Part shown: positions 18,290-52,961 of the stretch, piece after piece
Position numbering within the stretch: position 1 is the first letter of the stretch
How the letters are laid out: every line of letters begins with the position of its first letter
Assembly: GCA_026168455.1 (NCBI GenBank)
Contig: CM047427.1
Span: forward strand, 45,424,558-45,488,557
Direction of reading: 5' to 3'
DNA from: Theocolax elegans
Taxonomy: Eukaryota; Arthropoda; Insecta; Hymenoptera; Cerocephalidae
DNA: 64,000 bases
The notes under the pieces: model-generated
Databases searched by the model: none
What the model saw: the letters and a program-made list of their open reading frames with translations, nothing else
Told to the model about the DNA's origin: nothing
Translations under genes and position numbers: made by a program

Positions 18290-19440
18290 GTGCCGACGAC
18301 ATCGGCTGATTCCGAGAGAGATAGCGGCTGTCTCAGCCCGAATTCTGTGGGATCGACGGAAAAGTCAGATCAACACCAGATAGCGGCCGCTACCAGAGAT
18401 CATGATGATAGGGCTGGAGGAGAAGACCCTCCGAGTGAAAAAGAAACTCGTTGGTGGGTCCAAGTGGGCATTGCCGGCTACCGCGTACGCGCCTTGTTCG
18501 ATGCGGGAGCATCGCGCACGGTAATGGGTTCGATTGGTCTACAATTGGCCACGGCCTGCGGCTGTCCACTCATCCCGAGCAACGAAAGGAAAGCGAAAGT
18601 GCCAGGAAACCAGACGGTGGCGATCGCTGGTTACGTAGACCTGCCTTTCGAGGTTGCCGGGATAAAGCGAGATATTCGCGTAGCCGTACTTCCGGACGAT
18701 CAAATCGACTGTTACGTCGGAGCGGACTTCATCCGTAGTTTTGGCACAGTTTTGGATCCGAACGACAATAAACTTTGGATCAAAGCGGCCAACCAGTCCG
18801 TAGATCTGGAAGTACCGAGCGTATCGCGAATCGATGCGTTGGAGATAGCATCGATAGGACTAGCAGACTTACTGCCAGAGGAGCAGGTAAGACTGCATAC
18901 ACTGGCTGACCAATACCTGGGTACAACGGGGAGGCCGTTGGGATGTACATCTCTGATTGAGCACGCGATCGACGTGGGTGCGACGCGGCCAATCAAACAA
19001 AAATATTATCCCGTCTCTAAGCGAATAGAGGAAGAGATGCACGCCCAGGTTAAGGAGATGCTCGACGCGGGGGTGATTGAGCCATCAACCAGTGGATGGT
19101 CGAGCCCCGTAGTAATGGTCCGTAAACCTAACGGGAAGTATCGGTTCTGTATTGACTATCGGAAGGTCAATGCAGTGTCGAAAACCCATGCTTACCCGCT
19201 GCCTGACATGGACGGCATTCTACGGAAGCTCAAGAACGCGAGGTACATCAGCACGCTAGACTTGAGTAGCGCGTACCACCAGATACCGCTAAGACCGGAG
19301 TCAGCGGCTATAACCGCGTTCACAGTACCTGGGTTAGGCTTATTCTAATTTAAAAGGATGCCTTATGGCCTATCCCAGGCAGGAGCCACGTTCCAAAGGT
19401 TAGTGGACAAAATCATAGGGGCTGAGCTCGAACTCGAAGA
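18290..19440 (+). pseudogene. Ty3/gypsy element 3, protease and N-terminal RT
   Basis: One frame holds a retropepsin-like domain (VRALFDAGASRTVMG near residue 62; the usual Asp-Ser/Thr-Gly is Asp-Ala-Gly) ending in CYVGADFIRSFG. The RT fingers/palm follow: VIEPSTSGWSSPVVMVRKPN, FCIDYRKVNAVSK, YISTLDLSSAYHQIPL. A TAA at 19346-19348 replaces a codon that is Gln in the element at 1-1632. After it the frame reads FKRMPYGLSQAGATFQRLVD and then breaks at about 19435, exactly before the catalytic YxDD segment. No enzyme activity is possible from this copy. Confidence 0.85.
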
Positions 19441-20858
19441 GAATTAACGAGGCTAGTCTCACAGTGAATCGGGATAAGAGCGTATTTGGACGTACTGAGG
19501 TAAAATATCTCGGAGTGCTGGTGAACCGCGATGGAATCAGGCCAGACCCAGAGAAAATCGAGCCGGTCATCAATTATCCGGCGCCCAAGAATCTAAAACA
19601 ACTTAGAAGATTCCTTGGTATGGGTTCGTGGTACCGGAAATTCTTACGAGACTTTGCTACCTTGGCCGAGCCGCTGACGAGGCTTACCAAGAAGGACCGT
19701 AAGTTTGAATGGCTCGAGGAGCAGCAACAGGCATTCGATAAGATTAAGGCGCTGATCGCAACTGCTCCCGTCCTAGCGAGGCCAGAGTTCGATGTGCAGT
19801 TTGTCATACAAACGGACGCGAGCGACACTGGCATTGGCGCAGTACTTGTCCAGGTGATTAATGGGGAAGAGAGAGTACTAGAGTTCGCCAGTAGGACGTT
19901 AAACCAGGCCGATCGCAATTATAGCGTTACGGAACGAGAGTGCCTGGCGGTTATATGGGCGATTGGTAAATATAGACCTTTTATAGAAGGCTATCACTTT
20001 CGCGTTATAACCGACCATAGTAGCTTACGTTGGCTGCGTAGCTTACACAGTCCAACGGGTAGATTAGCGCGATGGGCACTTGAGTTACAGGGACACAGTT
20101 TTGATGTGGAGCATCGAAAAGGCGCCCTGAACTACGTACCCGACGCGCTATCGCGGATGAGCGAGGAGGAGGCCCTCGCCATCGACGCAATATCTTGGGT
20201 AGAGGAGTCCCAAGACGAGTGGTTTCAGAATTGGCTGAAACGAGTAAAATCTAGTCCAAGGGATTTTCCTCGTTGGAAGTGTGTCGGAGGACGACTATAC
20301 TTTCACAAGCCAAACGAGTTAATCGACGAAATACTCGGAGACGAGGACGCGTGGAAGTTAGTGATTCCAAAGGAACACCGAAAAGCGGTCCTCGAAGAAA
20401 GCCACGACTCTCCTACGTCTGGCAATGCTGGACGTGAGAAGACGTTTGCCAGTCTGGCTAAGTATTACTACTGGCCAGGTTATTACGCCGACGTGAAGAA
20501 CTACGTGCGTCGCTGTCTCGTCTGCCAACAATGCAAGGTGGATCAGCGACCACCTGCAGGACTGATGGGAAAACGCACGGTCGAGCGTCCCTGGCAAGTC
20601 GTGGCAGGGGATATCACCGGACCCTTTGTACGGAGCAAGGGCGGATACGAGTACATCCTAGTATTCTTGGATTTATTCACCCGGTGGGCGGAGTGTGTAC
20701 CAATTCGCAAAGCCAACGTGAAAACCATTCTCAAGGAGTTTAAAGAGAGGATAGTTTTGCGATTTGGTACTCCCTACAAGGGGTGGGGATACATCATACC
20801 ACCACTCCGCCATATTTCCCCCAAGCGAATCCGGTTGAACGCGTCAACCGAACGCTGA
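19441..20858 (+). pseudogene. Ty3/gypsy element 3, RT thumb, RNase H and integrase N-terminus
   Basis: A long open frame resumes with INEASLTVNRDK, the sequence that normally follows YLDD by about 40 residues, so the catalytic box has been deleted cleanly. RNase H is complete in appearance (QTDASDTGIGAVL, TERECLAVIWAIGKYRPFIE, VITDHSSLRWL, HRKGALNYVPDALSR). The integrase zinc domain follows (an H-x-H pair, then YYWPGYYADVKNYVRRCLVC, QQCK) with the first catalytic Asp in GDITGPF. The sequence then jumps from FGTPY into another frame, missing the DNGTEF segment with the second Asp. Both deletions make the element dead. Confidence 0.85.
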
Positions 20859-24794: not shown

Positions 24795-25342
24795 CTGTTT
24801 AATGGTAATCAATTGGTATTATTAATTATTATTATTATTATTATTTTTATTTTATTAAAACTTTATTTCGGCCTTATTGGCCCAGAAATGGACATTGGCT
24901 AGATTACATGTTCGCACACTCATACTTTTCCATACGTTTCACACTTCTCTTTTCCTATTTTACATTATCATTTCGTTTTATTTTGTATCATTTTCATTAT
25001 ATAATTTACTTTTCATATATTTGCTACAGACAATAAAACATCCCCTGATTAATATTAAAATTTTGATTTTATATCTAAATTTTCTTATTTTTATTACAAG
25101 TATTTTCTTTCTTTCCTACTTTGTATTTTTCTAACCTCATTACTTTTTTTCTATCTTTTTTTTTTTCTTTTTTTCTTCTTTATACATCAATTTATAATTC
25201 TACTTTACTATTACATTCATTTTTTACATTCTTTCACCCTGCATTCATCCTTTTTTTTTACATCATAGCGTTCCCGTGTTTATTTAAATTACACCTTTAT
25301 TTACACACAGCCGTTCTTATTTCGCATACATTAATAACTTTT

Positions 25343-25832
25343 CTACATTTTTTCTTTGATCGCCATCGAGATCTTCTCTATCGCTTTTACAATTTCTAAA
25401 TCGCATTTCCCTTCATACAGCTTTTTTAATCTTTCATATCTTTCTCCTGAAAGGTTTTCAGTCCACTGAACTGTTTTTTCGCACTCTTCCATATAATGGT
25501 CTATATTTCCCCAGTCTTCCTCGCATAATACGCATAATTTTTCTTTTTCTCCTAACCAGTATTTATTTATATTTTCTAAATTTCCGCACCTAAGTCTCGC
25601 GATTACAGAGTTATTTCTTCCGCTTATTCCCTTTTTCAGGTACAATGGTAAATTATCACAGACTATTTCCTTATATCTAACATTGTATTTAGAATTATTA
25701 ATTTTTTCATTTATCCTCTGTTTTTCAATATCTAAGCTCCTCCCATACGTTTCTACCTCAATCTCTATATTTTGTTCGATTTTGTCCCTAATATATTCTA
25801 AGCTAAAACCTAATGAATTGTAATATTTTTTC
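25343..25832 (-). pseudogene. LINE ORF2, C-terminal CCHC domain
   Basis: After the insertion the minus-strand reading continues and ends with CVLCEEDWGNIDHYMEECEK, a CX2CX8HX4C-type zinc motif usual at the end of insect LINE ORF2, then a helical tail to a TAA-type end at 25343. Continuity of the ORF across the duplicated target site shows that the insertion is younger than the LINE. Confidence 0.75.
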
Positions 25833-26027
25833 TTACAAAATTTTAACGTTCGGTAATATGTATATGTATAATAATTATCGGTCTCTCCGAACCAAATGCC
25901 TTACTTTTGGAATAATGCAGGCCTCTCGTACTCTTTGTCCACTATGGTTGGTGGAATCTCACAGAGCACGGCCTTTTATATATATAGCCGCAGAACATCT
26001 CGCTGGCGTCGCGGTTCATCTTGCGAC

Positions 26028-26096
26028 AGGCGTCTAAGGTAAGATCTCCAGTTCCTTACTGAGGAGTCCAAGCTGGAGATCGAGGACGAAACGCCT
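26028..26096 (+). ncRNA. type III hammerhead ribozyme, copy A
   Basis: All consensus parts are present. Stem III is AGGCG/CGCCT (26028-26032 with 26092-26096), and the cleavage triplet GTC ends at 26034. Stem I is TAAGG/CCTTA (26035-26039 with 26054-26058). Core CTGAGGA is at 26059-26065, stem II GTCC/GGAC at 26066-26069 with 26084-26087, and GAAA at 26088-26091. Open stem III makes it type III. Both closing loops are 14 nt, and loop I GATCTCCAG (26043-26051) is perfectly complementary to loop II CTGGAGATC (26073-26081). Predicted cut between 26034 and 26035. Confidence 0.9.
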
Positions 26097-26416
26097 TTAA
26101 TTATTTTAAAAGGCCGTGCTCTGTGAGATTCCACCAACCATAGTGGACAAAGAGTACGAGAGGCCTGCATTATTCCAAAAGTAAGGCATTTGGTTCGGAG
26201 AGACCGATAATTATTATACATATACATATTACCGAACGTTAAAATTTTGTAACAAACAACTCGCGATACGGTCTAAAAATTCGCGCTCTGGCTGGTGGCT
26301 TTTCCCACCACTAGAGGGAGACGACTATCTCTCTACACTCGTTGGAGAGATCGTCGTCTATTTTCTATATATATAGCCGCAGAACATCTCGCTGGCGTCG
26401 CGGTTCATCTTGCGAC

Positions 26417-26485
26417 AGGCGTCTAAGGTAAGATCTCCAGTTCCTTACTGAGGAGTCCAAGCTGGAGATCGAGGACGAAACGCCT
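26417..26485 (+). ncRNA. type III hammerhead ribozyme, copy B
   Basis: Identical to copy A and 389 bp downstream, same strand. Predicted cut between 26423 and 26424. Cleavage at both sites would release a 389-nt RNA with 5'-OH and 2',3'-cyclic phosphate ends, suited to circularisation. Confidence 0.9.
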
Positions 26486-26609
26486 TTAATTATTTTAAAA
26501 GGCCGTGCTCTGTGAGATTCCACCAACCATAGTGGACAAAGAGTACGAGAGGCCTGCATTATTCCAAAAGTAAGGCATTTGGTTCGGAGAGACCGATAAT
26601 TATTATACA

Positions 26610-27941
26610 TGTAATATTTTTTCCTTTCCATGTTATATAATGTTTCCAAATTTTCTCTTTGTCCCTCTATCCAGCACATTTTTATCAATCTGTCATTACT
26701 TAGTTTCCCTATTTTTTGTTCAAATCTAACAGCTCTTGACCCCCAGTGTAACGCTAATTTATTTGTCACCGTTTCTTTGTAAATTATATATTTTGGTGTC
26801 CATATGTCTAGTTTTAAAATCCACCTTATATAATCGGTTTTTATTTTTTCCAGCTCTTTTTTTTCTTGCCATCCCCATATTTCGACCCCATATTCCATTA
26901 CACTTCTTACTAGATATTGAAATAATTTTATTCTTCTTTTAAAATCCCCATTACAGTATTTTTCACCCAGTCCCCAAGTTTATTTGCTGCCGTTATTCCT
27001 TTTTTTTTTAATTCATTAATGTGGTCCTTATAGTTACCCTCTTTATTAAATGTAAAACCTAAATATTTAAATTGCCTCACTTCTTCTATTTCCTTATTCT
27101 CTCATAACCATTTATCTTTTTTGGAGTTCCTACCTTTGTTAAATACTAGAATTTTTGTTTTTTCTGTGCTTAGAATAAGCTTTCTATTTTTTAGAAACTT
27201 TTGTAACGTATCACACATATCAAGAAGTGCCTCTCGGTTCTCAGCTAATAAGACAATGTCATCCGCGTATGCTAACGACCAAATTCTATTGCTCCCTATC
27301 TTTATTCCTCCTATATTCCTGTCCTTAAATTCCTTTTCTAAACCCTCAATGTACAGACAAAAGAGAAGTGGACTCAGAACACACCCCTGCCTTAGCCCCA
27401 TGGTGATCCAGAATTCTTTTGAGGTTCCTTCTTTCATCCTAATTTTAACTTTGGTTTCTTCATAGATTCCTTTTAACCTTTCAATCAAGTATTTACTAAT
27501 ATCTTGTTTTTCCATGATCTCCCATAATAAACTCCTATCCACTGTATCGAATGCTGCCTTTAAATCTATAAACATTGAATATATTTTTTGTTTGCTTAGT
27601 TTCGACCTCTGTATTAAATGGTTTAAAATATATATATTGTCCAGTGTAGATCTTTCTTTCCTAAAACCTGCTTGTCCTTCTGGTAGCAGGTTCTTATCCT
27701 TAATCTCTTTTTCTAGCCTACCTCTTATCACCTCTGTATAAAGTTTATATGCCGTTGTTAATAGTGAAATTCCTCTGTAATTTTTCGCTATATTATGATC
27801 CCCTTTTTTATACAGTGGTACAATAACCGCTGTTTTCCATTCTTCTGGCATGTCATCTCCATCCCAAATTTTTCCTAGCACGCATATCATTCTTGTAATC
27901 AGATCCTCTCCTCCATACAACCATACTTCATCGACTTCCAT
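26610..27941 (-). pseudogene. LINE ORF2, reverse transcriptase
   Basis: The frame at 27941-27102 has the RT blocks in order: WKTAVIVPLYKKGD, NYRGISLLTTAYKLY, GQAGFRKERSTLDNIYIL, IDLKAAFDTVDR, GLRQGCVLSPLLFCLY, the catalytic LAYADDIVLL, and KTKILVFNKG. A stop occurs just after 27102 and short broken frames follow (GVEIWGWQEKKELEKIKTDY at about 26890, LALHWGSRAVRFEQ). The thumb region reads up to ERKKYY at 26610, where the hammerhead retroelement is inserted. The reading resumes on the far side at 25832. Confidence 0.85.
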
Positions 27942-29422
27942 CGATGCCCGCAGCTTTTTTCTTTTTTAATATCCTCCATGCTCTTTTTATTTCTATACCA
28001 GTCATTTTTTCTTCCTCCGTTAGTCCTTCTACTTTTTTCCTTTTTTCTCCTATTTGTTTTTCTTCGGTTCCTTGTAGTAATGTTTTAAAATGATTGATCC
28101 AGTCTTCTTCTTTTAAGTTATTATCTATTATTTCTTTTCTTTTCCTGAATCTATTCAAAAACTTCCATACGTCGTTTTCTCTTTTTATGCCTCTTAACTC
28201 TGCATCCTCCATTTCTTTAAATTGTTTTTCTTTTTCCAGGCAGTGCTTTCTCCACTCTTTTCTTTTCTTTATATAGACTTCTTTATCATTCCTACCATTT
28301 TTCCACTGTATTAACGCTCTGTTTACCTCTCTCTTTTTTCTGGCACAGCTTCTGTCCCACCATCTCTTCATACCTATTTTCCATTTTTTTATTTTGATTT
28401 CTTTTTTTTTAACCGAATTCCAAACTATCTTTTTTATTTCTTCCCAAGATATTTGAGCCGTATCACCATCCTTAATCTCTCCATCTACATTTGCGGTTAT
28501 TTCTTTAAATTCTGCTATGTCTTCTTCGCTCCATGTTATTATTTCCTTTTTTTTTGGTCCTTCTTGCTTTTTTCCTTTTTCTCTTTCTTCTTTATTATTT
28601 CTGTTACTTTTATCCATTGACACCATTGCGCATACAGGGACATGGTCCGAGCCCACCCTCTCCTCTATCACGTACTTAACTATCCGATCCCACATTTTTT
28701 CATTTACTATAATAAAATCTATTACTGAGCTACCTCTGTTACCTATAAACGTAAATTCTCCCTCCATATCCCCCTGTGTTCTACCATTTAGTATTACCCA
28801 TCCTTTATTTCAATGAAATCTACCATTTTTTTACCCCCATTACTAATAGTTTTGTCTTTACTAACTCTTTTATTTAACTTTTATTTACCCCTAATTCTTG
28901 GCCCAGATTATAATTTATTCCCTCCTCTCCTATCCGTATATTAAAGTCACCTCCAATAATTATTTCCCCCTCATCTATATAATCTTCCTCGTCCAGTTTT
29001 TCTCAGATCCTTTCACTATTACCTGTATTATAAACTGACCATACTGTTATTTCCTTCCCCTTTTCTTTTATTACCGATTTTATAAGTCCCCTTTCACACA
29101 TGATTCCTATTTTATTTTTATCAAACACTAAATCTTTTTTAACCCCTATTATAAAACCTCCTTTCGCTCTACCTTTTTTATGTTCCTTTACCGCTGATAC
29201 CACGCACCATTCAAACTTATCTGATAATTTCTGTTTTAAATTATTTGCGTCTTTTTCTTCCACCCATGTTTCTGATAAACTTATAAAAACTGCTTTTTCA
29301 ATATAAACCCAAAAATCTCTTTCTTTGTTCCATATTCCCGCTACATTCCAAAATATGAATTTTCTCACATTTCCCTCCTCGTAATTTTCTCCTGAATTAT
29401 CCCTTAAACTCCATTTCTGCAC
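27928..29422 (-). pseudogene. LINE ORF2, APE endonuclease and linker
   Basis: The first piece (29422-29003) starts MQKWSLRDNSGENYEEGNVR and contains FWNVAGIWN and LSETW, the first APE-endonuclease motifs. A stop at 29003 and an open but broken stretch follow. A second piece (28767-27928) carries the C-terminal motifs: SSVIDFIIV and GSDHVPV (the SDH catalytic His motif), then a long Lys/Glu-rich linker toward the RT. The frame breaks at about 27935 in the AAGIDG motif at the start of the RT. The enzyme would nick target DNA for target-primed reverse transcription; this copy is broken. Confidence 0.8.
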
Positions 29423-30471
29423 TATTGAAAATTTTTTTGTTGATTCCCCTCGTTTGTCTCGCTACTATTCGTTTCCCCCTCTCTATTTGTAGTTTCTAAT
29501 CTTTCTACGCTTTGGTTCTTCCCGTCTAATTCTATTCTATGTACTAATCTTTCCATGTCCTCCCACCTAAACCATGTATTTTTATAAAATATTTTACCGA
29601 ACCCTATTTTAAGCTGGATACCTCTCTCCCTTTTTTCTCTAACCCACGCAGTCATTTCTTCCTGTCTTTTTCTTTCCTCATAGCTTCTGTAATGCTCAAT
29701 ATATATTTTAGTCCCTACTAATTTATTCTTATTGCGCATAATCAACTCTTTGTCCTCCGCGCTCTCTAGTTTAATTACTATTACTTTTCCTTTAATTCTC
29801 ACGCTGTTTTGATCGATATCAATATCTACATTTAGCTTTTCTTTTAAAAATTTTACTACCGTTACTTTTACCGTTTCACTGTTCTGATTTATATCTAAAC
29901 CTTTCATCACTATCACATTTTGGTTTTCTCTTTTTTCTTTCTCCGCTAGCATTTTTTTCATCTGAATTACGTCCCTATCTGAAAAACTTAACCTACTCAA
30001 ACGACTAAATCCGCTCACGCCGGTCTGGTTGCTTCCCGCTGACGCGTTGCTTGCCCGACTCGATTCGCTCGCCAAACTTCGCGCCGATCCTTGCCACGAC
30101 TGCAAGCCAGATGCGCCCTCTCTTGCACGCCCGCCTAACTTATACTCCATCTCGGCCCGCCAAACTGCTTCCCGCTCATTTTTGCGCTCTTCTAATTCAT
30201 TCACTTTTCTTTCCATTTTTTCTAACCTTTCTATCATTTCTAGCTGACGCTCTTTCATTTCCGCTTTCATTTTTTCGATCGCTAACGCTTCCTGCCTAAT
30301 TTTTCTTACCTCCTCTTCTATCTTTTCTTTAAACTCCTTCTCTTTTTCCATGAATGCTATCTTCTTTACCTTGTTGTCTAGTGTCGGTAGATTCGGGTCC
30401 GTCGGTTGTTTGATTTTAGCTCTTGTTTCCCGCTTCGTTTCCTCCCCTTTGTTTGTAGATTTACCAGACAT
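29422..30471 (-). CDS. LINE ORF1: coiled-coil, RNA-binding protein
   Basis: Intact frame of 349 codons starting MSGKSTNKGEETKRETRAKI. Residues about 40-105 form a long charged heptad coiled coil (KEKEFKEKIEEEVRKIRQEA and on). A Ser/Ala-rich linker with SRLSRLSFSDRD follows, then a C-terminal part (about 190-310) with beta-alpha patterns (NVIVMKGLD, KVIVIKLESAEDKELIMRNK, GTKIYIEHYRSYEERKRQEE, GIQLKIGFGKIFYKNTWFRW) like the RRM plus C-terminal domain of L1-type ORF1p (Transposase_22-like). No CCHC knuckles. It lies directly before ORF2. Likely role: trimeric RNA chaperone packaging LINE RNA. Confidence 0.75.
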   Translation of the reverse strand: MSGKSTNKGEETKRETRAKIKQPTDPNLPTLDNKVKKIAFMEKEKEFKEKIEEEVRKIRQEALAIEKMKAEMKERQLEMIERLEKMERKVNELEERKNEREAVWRAEMEYKLGGRAREGASGLQSWQGSARSLASESSRASNASAGSNQTGVSGFSRLSRLSFSDRDVIQMKKMLAEKEKRENQNVIVMKGLDINQNSETVKVTVVKFLKEKLNVDIDIDQNSVRIKGKVIVIKLESAEDKELIMRNKNKLVGTKIYIEHYRSYEERKRQEEMTAWVREKRERGIQLKIGFGKIFYKNTWFRWEDMERLVHRIELDGKNQSVERLETTNREGETNSSETNEGNQQKNFQ

Positions 30472-40799: not shown

Positions 40800-42713
40800 G
40801 AGGATGAGAGTCGTTGGTGGCTTCTCGTGGAGATTGAGGGCTTTCGTATAAGAGCCTTATACGATCCCGGAGCCTCCACAACCGTGATGGGACCCAGCGG
40901 TCTGCAAATCGCCGCAGCATTGGGCAAGGAGCTCATTGTGGCGAACGTCGGACGCGTCAAGATGGCGGATGGTAGTTATCAACCGCTAAACGGTCATGTG
41001 ATCTTACCTTTCACTGTCGGAAATGAGACACGTGAAATAAGTGTAGCGATCATACCAAACCTTGACGCCGAATGCTACATAGGAGTAAATTTCGTACGAG
41101 CATTCAGAGCCATAATGGATCCGGATTGCGACCGCCTGTTCCTCAAGGACAGCAAGCAGCAGATCCACCTCGAAGTTGCTGGAATAGGGGGTATGGCCAC
41201 CCTCTCGTCCGCTGGGATAGCGGACGCAACTGAGGCGGAAAGGGAAGATCTGCGAGCGCTAGTAAGCAAAGTGCTGTCTAATACTTCGCCCAAAATCATG
41301 CGAACCCAACTCATCGAGCACTCGAATGAAGTGGGATCAGCTCGCCCAATAAAGCAGAAGTATTACTCGGTGTCGGAGAAGATCCAGGAGGAGATGCACC
41401 GGCAAGTCCGAGATATGCTAGATTTAAAGATCATAGAACCCTCAGGCAGCGGTTGGTGAAGCCCCGTGGTGATGGTACGCAAGGAGAACGGATCACGTCG
41501 GTTTTGCATTGACTTTAGGAAAGTCAATGCGCTGACGAAACCAGACGCTTATCCCCTCCCGTTCATGCAGGATATCTTGCGCAAGCTGAAGAAATATCAG
41601 TACATTAGTACTCTGGACATGAACTCAGCGTACCATCAAATACCTCTCCAGAAGGAATCGCGTCCTTATACGGCTTTCACAGTCCCGGGGATGGGGCTGT
41701 ATTAGTTTAAGCGGATGCCATACGGATTGGCATACGTCGGCGCGACCGTCCAATGCATGATTGACCAAGTTGTTGTTTCTGATATCGAGCCCAATGCCTT
41801 TTCTTACCTCGATGACATTATTATAGTCAGCGAGACATTTGAAGGGCATAAGAAATATCTCGAGATGGTGCTGAAAAGACTGATCGAAGCTAACTTGACA
41901 GTAAATAAAGACAAGTGTGTCTTTTGTCAAGATGAGGTGAGATATCTTGGCGTGCTGGTCAACAGGCATGGAATTCGTCCCGACCCAGCCAAGACAGAGC
42001 CTATAATGGTTTATCCGGCTCCCAAGAACCTCAAACAGCTTCGACGATTCCTCGGCATGGCGTCGTGGTATCGGCGTTTTATGCCGGATTACGCCACGAT
42101 TGCCGAGCCGCTTACCCGTCTCACAAAGAAGAACCAAGTGTTCGAGTGGTTAGATGAACAGGAACAAGCCTTTCAGCAGCTGAAGGCCCTGATCATGACT
42201 GCTCCAGTTCTTCAACGTCCCAGTGCAGATGGACTGTTTAGCCTGCACACGGATGCGAGCGATACCGCCATAGGAGCCGTGCTCGTCCAAGAGATAGACG
42301 GAGAGGAAAGAGTCATTGAGTTTGCCGGTCGCATTCTCACAGCACCCGAGAAGAATTATAGCGTTACGGAGAGGGAATGCTTGGCCGTGGTCTGGGCTAT
42401 TAATAAGTTCAGACCTTACATCGAAGGGTACCACTTCAAAGTGATAACGGACCATAGTAGTCTTCGCTGGTTGTGTAATATGAGAAATCCAACCAGCCGA
42501 CTAGCGAGATGCACTCTAGAGCTTCAAGCTCATGACTTTATCGTCGAGCACAGAAAAGGAGCTCTGCATCACGTTTCCGATGCCCTATCTCGCATGTATG
42601 AAGACGACGAGCCTACAGTAGCAGCAATGTCGTGGGCTCAAACTACTGAAGATCCTTGGTATCAAGACTGGATCAAGAACATTTCCGACAGACCTCGAGA
42701 TTTCCCCGACTGA
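40800..42713 (+). pseudogene. Ty3/gypsy element 4, protease, RT and RNase H
   Basis: One frame from 40827 to 42713, interrupted by stops at 41457-41459 (TGA), 41703-41705 (TAG at a Gln position) and 42711-42713 (TGA at a Trp position), with no frameshift. Protease: IRALYDPGASTTVMG (Asp-Pro-Gly instead of Asp-Ser/Thr-Gly) and CYIGVNFVRAF. RT: IIEPSGSGW, FCIDFRKVNALTK, YISTLDMNSAYHQIPL, RMPYGLAYVGATVQ, catalytic SYLDDIIIV, KQLRRFLGMASWYRRFM. RNase H: HTDASDTAIGAVL, TERECLAVVWAINKFRPYIE, VITDHSSLRWL, HRKGALHHVSDALSR. The RT active site is present, unlike in the related element at 18290-20858. Confidence 0.88.
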
Positions 42714-43840
42714 AAAATAGTTGGAGGAATACTATACATCTAACGCCCCGACTAGGAGTTAGAGAAAGTGATGGATGACGAGCAAACATGGAAGCTGGTC
42801 GTATCCGTAGAGAATCGTCACTCTTTTCTAGGAGAGTGTCACGACGATCCCTCAGCTGGCCATCTCGGAAGGGAAAAGACATTCGCCCGCGTGGCCCAAA
42901 ACTATTATTGGCCACGGTTCTACGCAGAAGTTGCGGATTACGTCAGGCGATGTCAAGTGTGCCAGCAATGTAAGGTCAAGCAACGTGCTCCTTCAGGGTT
43001 AATGGGTCACCGTCAATCGGACAGACCATGGCAGGTGGTATCAGGAAATATCACTGGCCCGCTTCCACGCTCTAGCCGAGGATACGAATACATCCTAGTA
43101 TTCCAGGATTTATTCACGCGCTGGATTGAAGCAATCGCGATAAGAAAAACTAACGCAAAGTCGATAGTCCGCGAGCTTCACGAACGAGTGACCAACCGGT
43201 TCGGCACCCCGGAAGTATTTCATTTGACAACGGGACCGAGTTTAAAAATAAACTCGTAGACGAATATCTCAAAACTAAGGGAGTGTATCATTCGACGACA
43301 CCCCCTTATCACGCACAGGCCAATCCTGTCGAGAGGGCCAATCGGACCCTTAAGACCATGGTGGCGTCGTATATCCAGGATAAGCACAGCGACTGGGACG
43401 ACAAGCTGCCAGAGTTAGTCTTTGCACTAAACACAGCGGTGCAAAGTTCTACTGGATGGAGCCCGGCTATGCTGAACTATTGTTGCCAACCTGAGGCGCC
43501 TAGTACAGCTCGTCGAGAGCAAGACCGGCTTGCCCAGCAACTGTTTGAGTTCCTTAGACTGCAGAATTGGAACGACAAAATCAAACAGTTGCCAAGACTG
43601 CACGAGAACGCAAATCGTCAGTCGGCTGCCAGTAAGGCCCGGCGAGCCGAAATCTTCAACTCACGACGAAGGCCAGCAGAATTCAAGGTAGGAGATCTGG
43701 TGTAGAAACGCAACCGGATCCTCTCGTCCAGCGCACAAGGTATCTTGGCTAAGCTTGCTCCGAAATACACAGGGCCATATCTAATCATCAGTAGGAAAGG
43801 TATGAATACATATGTCATACAAGATGATCAAGGGGACCAA
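42714..43840 (+). pseudogene. Ty3/gypsy element 4, integrase
   Basis: Continues in the pol frame with stops at 42739 and 42748, then the HHCC zinc domain (HSFLGECHDDPSAGH, RRCQVCQQCK). The first catalytic Asp of the core is Asn here (GNITGPL, where the related copy has GDITGPF). A run of A at about 43242 shifts the frame inside DNGTEF, and the reading continues at 43250 with TPPYHAQANPVERANRTLKT (catalytic Glu present). A TAG at 43703-43705 lies in KVGDLV. The C-terminal GPY-like end follows to about 43860. The segment from 43131 on is tandemly duplicated. Confidence 0.85.
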
Positions 43841-49740: not shown

Positions 49741-51366
49741 ATGGGTGGTTCTCTGTGACATCGAAGATGAAAAAAATAAATATTGCTATAACTGTGGGAA
49801 TATGTTTTAGAGGTATCCAGTAGTTCTCCTGAATTTTTTCAGATTTTTTCTGGGCCATTATTTTAAGTTACAGAGAGTCAAAGTTGACATTTTAGCACTT
49901 TTTTGCATTATATGCCCATTTTCATGAATTTTTAGCTCCCAGGGGATGCATTTTTCACTAAAAACATAAGTATGAATTTTTTTGTAAAATTTTCCGAACT
50001 TTTCACTAAAAATACTTTTAAAGACATAAATGTATGCTGTCACACTCTTGTAAGTCATTTAAACCTTAAATAGTGAAAATCAGCAATTCTGCTCCGGACT
50101 CTGGTAACCTAATACTGTCTAAAAGATGTCTTTTTATAGTCAGCAACTGCCTAAAAATTTCCAGAGTGGCTCTAAATCATTAAGATCACTTATGGTCAAA
50201 ATATCCGGGAAAAGTGCCCGAAATATTAATAGAAATGTACATTTGTTGCCTCATAACGATGAATCTATTAGCATGATCATTGCAAAAAAATTGATGCACT
50301 TACCTTGGAATGGTAGAAAAGTATCTTCACTTGTTTCAGTATCCATCTAATCCCCTGTAAGCTGCTAAAAATGCAAATATTATTATACAAATGTAAAAAA
50401 TTAATTTTTAAACATTTATAATGCTGAATTTTTAGCTTTACATCCCTTATAAGAATTATAATACTAATCTGAAGGATTACTATAAATATATAAACATCAT
50501 TATTACAATAACTGAATATACGTATTTAATACAAAAGATATATAAATAAATCGGATATATAATTATAATGAATAATATGATAACGTGACAGTGACAAGTT
50601 TATGAAATCTAAACAATGTATTGCTGAATAATAATAATAATAATGTTGATACTTTTATAGTAATCCTTCAGATTAGTAATATAATTCTTGTAAGGGATGT
50701 AAAACTAAAAATCCAGCATTATAAATGTTTAAAAAATAATTTTTTATAATTATATAATAATATTTGTATTTTTAGCAGCTTACAGGTTATTAGATGGATA
50801 CTGAAACAAGTAAAGATACTTTTCTACCATTCCAAGGTAAGTGCATCAATTTTTTTGCAATGATCATGCTAATAGATTCATCGTTATGAGGCAACAAATG
50901 TACATTTCTATTAATATTTCGGGCACTTTTCCCGGATATTTTGACCATAAGTGATCTTAATGATTTAGACCCACTCTGGAAATTTTTAGGCAGTTGCTGA
51001 CTATAAAAAGACATCTTTTAGACAGTATTAGGTTACCAGAGTCCGGAGCAGAATTGCTGATTTTCACTATTTAAGGTTTAAATGACTTACAAGAGTGTGA
51101 CAGCATACATTTATGTCTTTAAAAGTATTTTTAGTGAAAAGTTCGGAAAATTTTACAAAAAAAGTCATACTTATGTTTTTAGTGAAAAATGCATCCCCTG
51201 GGAGCTAAAAATTCATGAAAATGGGCATATAATGCAAAAAAGTGCTAAAATGTCAACTTTGACTCTCTGTAACTTAAAATAATGGCCCAGAAAATATCTG
51301 AAAAAATTCAGGAGAACTACTGGATACCTCTAAAACATATTCCCACAGTTATAGCAATATTTATTT
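49741..51366. mobile_element. foldback element 2: arms of about 715 bp
   Basis: The left arm from 49774 to about 50490 and the right arm from about 50650 to 51366 are near-identical reverse complements around a centre near 50570, with a loop of about 160 bp. The paired 66- and 74-codon ORFs seen on both strands are mirror images. The left side extends beyond the arm as ATGGGTGGTTCTCTGTGACA behind a TA run, probably the true terminus; the right terminus is lost. It abuts Ty3 element 5 inside its RNase H. Non-coding; class unknown. Confidence 0.85.
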
Positions 51367-52300
51367 CTTGGATAAGCACACTGACTATAGCATAGTCGCT
51401 AGCATCGGTTTGGAGGGTAAAAGGGAGGGAAAAATCGGGGCAAGCTAAAACAGGGGCTTGGGTAAGTGCTAGCTTCATTTTCTCGAATGCATCATGCTGT
51501 ACTTGATGCCATTGCCATCTAACATCCTTTCGCGTTAAATAATTTAACGGTGCTCTGTATTCGGCTAATTTCCCGATAAACCTTGAATACCAACCAATTA
51601 AGCCAGTAAAACGTCTTAGTTGCTTTAAATTGGTTGGGGCTGGATACTCTAGTATCGGTCGTATCTTATCTATATTTGTTTTGAGGACATCCTCATTAAC
51701 AATATATCGTAGATAAGTTACTTCCGCGCAACAGAATTCGGACTTTTCTTTGTTAATTTGTAGATTTACCTTTTTGAGGTCGGTTAGTACTATTCTTAAC
51801 CATTTTAAGTGATCCTCGAAGGCTTTGGCTGTAATAATTATATCGTCCAAATATGCGAATACGTTTGGCTTCCATTCTGGTATTATGAGCTTGTCCAACA
51901 TTTTGTGGAAAATTGCAGGTGCATTCGATAGGCCGTAGGGGACTCGGGTAAACTGAAATAATCCTTTACCGGGAAGTGAAAAGGCTGTAATTTCGCGGCT
52001 TTCTGGTGCTAGAGGGACTTGGTGGTAAGCTTGCGATAAATCAAGCTTACTAATGTAACGACTTTCTCTCAGCTGATCGAGAATGTCGTCCACATATCGC
52101 ATAGGGTACGCTATTTTCTTGGTAACAGCGTTAACCTGCCGGAAATCAATGCAAAAGCGGTATTTTCCGTTTGCTTTCGAAACTATAATTGGGCAGCTGC
52201 AATATAATTGGATACCTTCCTTTAGCATCCTGTCGATTTCCTCGTATCCAGCCTGCAGCCTGCAACTCGATTTTATGGGAATCTTGGTTAGTTACACCTA
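51367..52300 (-). pseudogene. Ty3/gypsy element 5, RT and start of RNase H
   Basis: Minus-strand frame with CIDFRQVNAVTKKIAYPMRY, YISKLDLSQAYHQVPLAPES, RVPYGLSNAPAIFHKMLD, catalytic FAYLDDIIIT, EVTYLRYIVNEDVLKTNIDK, LKQLRRFTGLIGWYSRFIGK and TLQTDASDYAIVSVLIQ. It is cut there by the foldback element, so most of RNase H, integrase and the 3' LTR are missing. The join to the protease frame near 52150-52230 needs a frameshift. The RT core residues look intact. Confidence 0.85.
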
Positions 52301-52961
52301 GCGTTCTTGTTGTTGGGGGAATCATCTCATTTAATAGCTGATGTAATCTCCATTCTTGTTCCGGTGTAGCTGGTTTCAATCCTCCTATGCCTGCTGGCGC
52401 GGGTAAGCAACTCGGGTCTTTGCCATAAGGATAAAAATGATGAATGATACCTTTATCAGTCCACCACGTATCATTTTCGTAGCATATTTTCATGTTCGCT
52501 TTCCGCCTAAAGTCGATACCTAATATGCAATCGTAATGCAAGCCGTCTGCTACTTGGAAGGGCATTATAATAGTTTCACCATCTATTTCCATGGTTATAT
52601 CTATTATACCTTGTATTGGTACAGCTGTACCATCTGCTACTTTAACGGCTGAATTGCTGACTTTTCGCCATTTATGCTGTAATACTTTACTCATTCCTCG
52701 CCCAATGAATGAGTGTACTGACCCATCGTCAAGTAAAGCTGTAAGTTTTTGTCCATTTAACTCTATGTTAAAGAAATGGCGTGCATCGATGCCGGGTATT
52801 TGCTGTATTAGGGAATTATTTGCTGCTAAGTGGGAGGGTATTGACCCTTTTGGGTGTTTGGGTGAGAAAATACGGGTCTCTATTTTCTCTGGCTGTAGTT
52901 TCCCTGGTTTCTGTTTTTGTTGCAGCGGCAGTTTGTGTAATTTGTGCCTTGAGCACCGCAA
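52146..52961 (-). pseudogene. Ty3/gypsy element 5, aspartic protease region
   Basis: Frame of 271 codons. Residues about 60-160 are protease-like (NIELNGQKLTALLDDGSVHS, then MPFQVADGLHYDCILGIDFRR). The catalytic triplet reads Asp-Asp-Gly where Asp-Ser/Thr-Gly is usual. The C-terminal part (GLKPATPEQEWRLHQLLNEM) leads toward RT. Confidence 0.75.

Follow-up and report, generated by a model that had tools for sequence, protein, structure and literature searches.

A small non-coding element with tandem type III hammerhead ribozymes and Penelope-like insertion anatomy in a hymenopteran-like genome

Introduction

In insertion anatomy, the closest described systems are the Penelope-like elements (PLEs). 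The protein of the PLE studied in vitro cuts and extends both target strands, reverse transcription is initiated internally, and the "tail" is equated with the interval between two observed reverse-transcription start sites (PMC11167929). In that system hammerhead ribozyme (HHR) mutants left insertion unaffected, no difference in start site was seen between top and bottom strands, and the RNA had to include the first 172 nt of the open reading frame (ORF). A rotifer PLE is described as carrying an optional 31-bp tail at one of its two inverted pLTRs (PMC3846280, in part). The element reported here shares with PLEs its head-to-head arms, partial tandems, apparently internal initiation, short target duplications (8–10 bp in the rotifer) and an optional tail of 30–40 bp at one end, but PLEs encode a protein and have minimal type I HHRs, whereas this element is non-coding and has type III HHRs (PMC11167929; PMC3846280, in part).

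The metazoan non-LTR retrozymes are non-coding units of ∼170–400 nt with less than 50% GC, arranged as tandem copies that each carry an HHR, in genomes that also contain PLEs (PMC7229834, in part; Cervera and de la Peña 2020). A unit of 389 nt and 44.7% GC conforms to this pattern, as do its tandem arrangement and the PLEs found in the same genome. However, the HHRs in the available part of that account are of type I, and PLEs are there only a strong candidate mobilizer, whereas the insertions described below bear the PLE end signature. The LTR retrozymes of plants do have dimeric type III HHRs, and a circular RNA intermediate is a feature of those elements, but they are 600–800 nt long with LTR features and 4-bp duplications, compared to 389 nt and 14 bp here (PMC4918200, as described in PMC7229834).

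Type III HHRs with loop I–II pseudoknots have been described in termite and dipteran genomes and in termite and toad delta-like RNAs (PMC7936874, in part; de la Peña 2021), and elements with type III HHRs in insects receive a passing mention elsewhere (PMC7761336, in part). The ribozymes reported here resemble them in having a 5-bp stem I, enlarged stem I and II elements and Watson–Crick pairing between loops I and II; however, the four delta-like HHRs pair GCCR with YGGC (4 nt), as opposed to 9 nt here and mostly 10–13 nt in a second family, and the termite genomic motifs are isolated rather than tandem mobile units (PMC7936874, in part). About 40% of hammerheads are estimated to use a stem I–II pseudoknot (PMC3088659, in part), so the pseudoknot itself is not new. 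The preliminary description of this locus called a type III form unusual in an insect; that is borne out to the extent that the structure search in the available part of PMC7936874 found no type III HHR in hymenopterans, but termites and dipterans were already known to have them. In the open-access literature searched, we recognized no report describing either a type III retrozyme in an animal or a hammerhead in a hymenopteran.

Results

A 777-bp insertion in a decayed LINE

The window analysed is a stretch of 64,000 nt. Positions 25833–26609 are a 777-bp insert that interrupts a LINE and is flanked on both sides by an exact 14-bp target duplication, with the following parts:

25819–25832, no strand: left target-site duplication TGTAATATTTTTTC, direct repeat
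25833–25978, minus strand: inverted arm, terminating on the outside in a 3′ end (unit ∼218; the long end, carrying the tail)
25974–25978: arm overlap (microhomology) common to the inverted and direct arms
25974–26609, plus strand: direct arm, 1.63 units of 389 bp, terminating on the outside in a 3′ end (unit 186; the short end)
26220–26253, plus strand: 34-nt "tail", the interval between the two 3′-end positions (unit ∼186 to ∼219)
26610–26623, no strand: right target-site duplication TGTAATATTTTTTC, direct repeat

The bounds given in the preliminary description are exact, being set by the direct repeat. Removal of the insert and one repeat copy restores a single LINE frame that stays open for 281 codons through the junction, whereas the longest frames in the interrupted sequence have 204 and 185 codons. 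The two tandem cores and retrozyme-like organization reported earlier stand, but the left 146 bp (25833–25978) had been overlooked as an inverted copy of 26107–26252, so the insert is not a plain dimer, and with it the main feature, an insertion anatomy like that of PLEs, had been missed. That the insert is a non-coding retroelement is supported. The only listed overlapping ORF of at least 150 aa (26365–26898, minus strand) extends into the insert from the LINE and lacks a Pfam match, and since the element has no ORF for a reverse transcriptase and GIY-YIG endonuclease, it could only be a non-autonomous dependant of a PLE.

The interrupted LINE spans about 24800–30471 on the minus strand, with an RVT_1 domain at 27102–27941, and one of its homologues carries the name jockey-like. 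Its reverse transcriptase is 74% identical to a Trichomalopsis sarcophagae protein; further named matches are from Trichogramma, Copidosoma, ants and a bee, and lower ones from a beetle, a fly and non-insects. The nearest named proteins of the PLEs described below are from Leptopilina and Trichogramma, and these Hymenoptera-like proteins lend indirect support to the insect origin proposed earlier. Judged from these transposon proteins, the host is probably a member of the Hymenoptera, and likely a parasitoid wasp. Three other stretches of the window (18290–20858, 40827–43259 and 51317–52961) resemble LTR retrotransposons, with aspartic protease, reverse transcriptase and RNase H domains, and integrase domains in two of them.

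Type III hammerhead ribozymes with complementary loops

Each unit carries one HHR and one long hairpin:

26027–26097, plus strand: type III HHR copy 1 (RF00008, 36.5 bits; predicted cleavage 26034/26035)
26043–26051, plus strand: loop I segment GATCTCCAG, complementary to loop II segment CTGGAGATC at 26073–26081
26416–26486, plus strand: type III HHR copy 2 (RF00008, 36.5 bits; predicted cleavage 26423/26424)
26432–26440 and 26462–26470, plus strand: complementary loop segments of HHR copy 2, as in copy 1
26035–26423, plus strand: 389-nt unit (44.7% GC) releasable by predicted cleavage at both HHRs
26320–26358, plus strand: long hairpin GACGACTATCTCTC...GAGAGATCGTCGTC, one per unit

The RF00008 matches (E 4.3e-6 per HHR in a relaxed Rfam search of 841 bases) confirm the two identical, intact, same-strand cores 389 bp apart that had been reported. 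The model search that had been proposed as a check was positive in this relaxed form, but over the whole window Rfam gave no match at gathering score (48.5 bits for RF00008). Loops I and II are far longer than in the RF00008 model, and the sub-cut-off score weakens strict Rfam assignment, not the structural match to a type III HHR. The CUGANGA...GAAA core, a UH cleavage site and stems I–III with stem III open are all present, in agreement with the type III topology assigned earlier. In order, the motif consists of stem III (GGCGT/ACGCC, five pairs in the descriptor match) with predicted cleavage after GTC; stem I (TAAGG/CCTTA, also five pairs) with a 14-nt loop, then CTGAGGA; and stem II (GTCC/GGAC) with a 14-nt loop, then GAAA. 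The earlier reading recognized both full cores but not the complementarity of loops I and II over 9 nt. The whole unit folds better than 100 of 100 shuffled sequences (z −4.94); a fold restricted to the tail region gave no information (z +1.18).

The chance of 9 complementary nucleotides in such loops is ∼1e-4 (4 of 40,002 simulated), and of 12, ∼5e-7 (analytic). The loop I–II Watson–Crick run is at least 9 nt in 12 of 22 parses of this family (family 1) and 5–8 nt in the other 10. A generic core pattern recovered at least 120 stretches from IMG/VR, among which 10 distinct type III motifs were parsable, suitable for a loose comparison only; the longest run among those 10, from the matches listed, is 4. 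Relative to the papers cited here, the length of the putative pairing appears to stand out. The exact patterns of both HHR families have no match in the viral contigs. Family 1 pattern matches in two bacterial metagenome-assembled genomes were rejected, as the downstream sequence is no hammerhead and ∼7 chance matches are expected.

Conservation of the ribozyme among copies

The insert has at least 399 matches in the 658-Mb source assembly. Loci fetched from it (see below) yielded 194 full-length HHR copies, 38 of them distinct, with 17 partial matches left out. The core pattern is kept in 179 of the 194, which together with the number of genome matches indicates that the HHR is not due to chance. 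In 170 of the 188 copies of standard length (25 of 32 distinct), each of the nine loop pairs is a standard one. Within family 1, 11 changes were counted over the 13 core positions, 9 over the 18 loop-pairing positions and 32 over the other 49. Substitutions are thus no sparser in the core than around it, as expected if copies decay after insertion, and selection on the core within the family was rejected. Of four divergent family 1 copies that were read, the 78%-identical one has retained its core together with the nine loop pairs (two as G-U), and the other three have damaged cores. A 69%-identical copy with a damaged core appears, as read from the alignment, to carry two compensatory double changes in the loops. 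The evidence for loop I–II pairing, as we read it, lies between the families and not within family 1.

Insertions with one short and one long end

Thirty-eight places, the window's own included, were fetched; they were picked from the best-scoring matches listed, and the sample is therefore biased toward good copies. A script delimited 43 insertions in them, some being segmental duplicates (L149–L151, L163–L165). Thirty insertions are two-armed and head to head, 12 have a single orientation and one is mixed. An exact target duplication of at least 11 bp flanks 24 of the 43 (two of these duplications, at L143 and L155, are of low complexity). The remaining 19, which have none at the script-found ends, were dropped from the count of ends; nine of them are of single orientation, and one of the 19, L139, shows an inexactly placed 15-bp repeat around a single-armed array with a short end. 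L163, L164 and L165 (G000 C7:34618000-34657500) are three copies of one single-arm insertion, repeated every ∼18.4 kb and probably produced by segmental triplication; they were set aside, leaving 21 two-armed insertions.

In all 21 both outer ends are 3′ unit ends. In 17 of them one end lies at unit position 183–188 and the other at 215–222 (mean difference 33.7 nt, range 30–39). Three (L129, L144, L157) combine a long end with a shortened one (165–175), in one (L138) both ends are short (184 and 191), and none has two long ends; at L131 one end was assigned from the end sequence, the script placement being wrong. One short plus one long end in 17 of 18 departs from even odds (p = 1.4e-4). Of the 24 rows, 13 have a target duplication of exactly 13 bp, which corresponds to 11 of 22 events, and the duplications are 81% A+T.

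The inner ends, by comparison of 56 after two duplicate loci were dropped, fit a uniform spread over the unit (p 0.68), and only two lie within 5 nt of the predicted cleavage site, about chance level, which argues that cut linear monomers are not the usual templates. The longest arm has 13.48 units. An excess of arms with nearly equal inner ends was rejected, with one case (L154) among 28 two-armed insertions; at L154 (G000 C6:31788200-31791900) the inner ends are 2 nt apart (unit 32 and 34) and the junction is near-palindromic. At the compared positions, L138 and L154 are free of substitutions, both inside each arm and from one arm to the other, which suggests recent movement.

Homogeneity of the arrays

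Twenty-five arrays comprise at least five unit pieces; sites with a variant common to a subset of the units are absent from 13 of them, number 1–2 in six and number 4–28 in six. In L134 (G000 C2:43084800-43092200) and L156 (C7:3675000-3684900) the units alternate in a partly regular dimer pattern, which could reflect either a dimeric template or a DNA-level higher-order repeat. The two arms of an insertion differ less from each other than from the closest other insertion in just 9 of 25 cases, so homogeneity within insertions was not accepted as proof that one circular template had been used. The data do not distinguish between circular or dimeric-circular templates, linear multimers and later DNA-level expansion.

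A second family and autonomous PLEs

RF00008 was run over the whole genome, with scores for 68 of 79,098 candidates. The 14 places recovered all score below cut-off and all belong to a second family; family 1 is not among them. Family 2 has a unit of about 512 bp that is unrelated in sequence to family 1 (best RF00008 score 42.9), and in spite of this it retains both the core and the loop complementarity, with a Watson–Crick run of 10–13 nt in 11 of 15 distinct parses and 3–7 nt in the other four. Five distinct insertions have a target duplication (11–14 bp), and each of these pairs a short end near unit positions 286–295 with a long end near 328–334 (untrimmed coordinates); the other family 2 loci are cut within arrays or had no duplication that was found.

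There are 98 GIY-YIG matches in the genome. At L187 (G000 C2:55231300-55241200) a PLE with a 2888-bp unit has an 884-codon ORF, open in both arms, with RVT_1 (1.9e-10) and GIY-YIG (5.6e-6) domains; its head-to-head arms are 99.9% identical, the duplication is 15 bp and one end is about 30 nt longer. The open frames and arm identity suggest recent activity. L185 is the same PLE with a 13-bp duplication and its tail on the opposite side. A CTGATGA...GAAAC motif at the start of its ORF may be read as the minimal type I hammerhead published for PLEs; at E up to 5, Rfam listed no hammerhead in either L185 or L186. Among the nine PLE or GIY-YIG loci fetched (L185–L193, six of them 901 bases each), no PLE has the retrozyme tail sequence. 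The 12-mer TAACAAACAACT, common to the long end of the unit and the PLE ORF, was rejected as a chance match, since ∼500 nt separate it from the positions at which the PLE itself ends.

Discussion

With its observed anatomy, outer ends, target duplications, copy number and retained cores, and with PLEs of the same anatomy in the same genome, family 1 is very probably a non-autonomous, non-coding retrozyme of the metazoan type that is mobilized by PLE-type machinery. It consists of small, mobile, non-coding tandem HHR units like the published members, and is classed as a variant of them because its HHR is of type III instead of type I. A multimeric transcript would be cut by its HHRs into 389-nt units, which would probably be circularized. 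A Penelope-type protein (reverse transcriptase plus GIY-YIG endonuclease), presumably that of a PLE of this genome, would take up the RNA and make two cuts in an AT-rich target, one per strand and about 13 bp from each other. Reverse transcription would then be primed inside the RNA by each of the cut strands, judging from the insertion ends mostly at unit ∼185 and ∼34 nt further 3′; the two cDNAs would follow or circle the template, sometimes for several units, stop at variable positions and join head to head, and sometimes just one arm would be synthesized.

The Penelope-type signature of inverted arms, a short duplication and a tail of ∼30–40 nt at one end is present strictly in 17 of 21 family 1 insertions, 5 of 5 in family 2 and 2 of 2 of the PLE, yet 12 of 43 family 1 insertions are single-armed, which, like the 19 of 43 without an exact duplication, speaks against a PLE mechanism. 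The mechanism also does not account for two findings on the in vitro PLE, whose start sites showed no difference between the strands and whose protein required RNA from the start of the ORF (PMC11167929). Two further points weigh against it, namely that none of the loci L185–L193 has a PLE with the tail sequence of the retrozyme and that the family 1 core is not depleted of substitutions. Against a single monomeric circle stand the six of 25 arrays with 4–28 subset-shared variant sites.

These arrays would also suit templates that are linear, uncleaved multimeric transcripts, in which case neither HHR nor circle would be necessary for movement, a possibility that we regard as somewhat unlikely. 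HHR mutants had no effect on insertion in the sole PLE studied in vitro (PMC11167929), six of 25 arrays are heterogeneous with two (L134, L156) partly alternating, and the array data as a whole are compatible with such templates, since a young homogeneous array would look alike; but 19 of 25 arrays have 0–2 subset-shared variant sites (though many have few units), the inner ends are spread across the unit, and intact ribozymes should cleave long transcripts. That the HHR-like motif is an inactive relic whose complementary loops mainly form one long hairpin is improbable. When pseudoknots are left out, the minimum-energy fold is indeed that hairpin (−28.9 kcal/mol, vs −13.5 for the three stems), but the 9-bp loop duplex contributes −13.8, which, if loop entropy is disregarded, brings both folds to about the same energy, and the core and loop complementarity are kept in the unrelated sequence of family 2.

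Long tandem arrays, the alternating higher-order pattern in two of them and segmentally duplicated copies (L149–L151, L163–L165) are what a satellite-like repeat amplified at the DNA level, by unequal crossing over or through extrachromosomal circular DNA, would also produce. Such an origin is extremely improbable, given exact target duplications around insertions of widely differing length, fixed outer ends, inverted arms and the clean insertion within the LINE frame. Twin priming likewise yields inverted 5′ segments, and the window contains LINE and other reverse transcriptases, so an ordinary LINE-type target-primed insertion, with no PLE involved, could account for the inversion. It is nonetheless highly improbable, as the ends are internal to the unit with no poly(A) tail, the two end positions are 34 nt apart with one on each side, and the GIY-YIG PLEs of the same genome have the same end pattern.

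Within the reading preferred here, mobilization of a retrozyme by PLE machinery, a more specific version can be put forward as a speculation that is doubtful in its full form. A single circular 389-nt RNA would sit on a dimer of the PLE protein, both strands of the same double-strand cut would prime reverse transcription from start sites 34 nt apart, and rolling-circle synthesis could extend an arm to 12 units or more. Loops I and II might then act as a two-state switch between a kissing complex (active) and the long hairpin (inactive), the latter shielding the circle from re-cleavage.

As the mobilizer of animal retrozymes, PLEs had previously been only a strong candidate (PMC7229834, in part). 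A non-coding element with the two-start-site signature of PLEs, in a genome that also has PLEs with long open frames and that signature, would make mobilization directly testable, and because the unit is only 389 nt, each arm should record the number of template units passed. The rule of one long and one short end constrains how both strands may be primed, and the type III HHRs of animals would gain a hymenopteran-like host and an extended loop–loop interaction.
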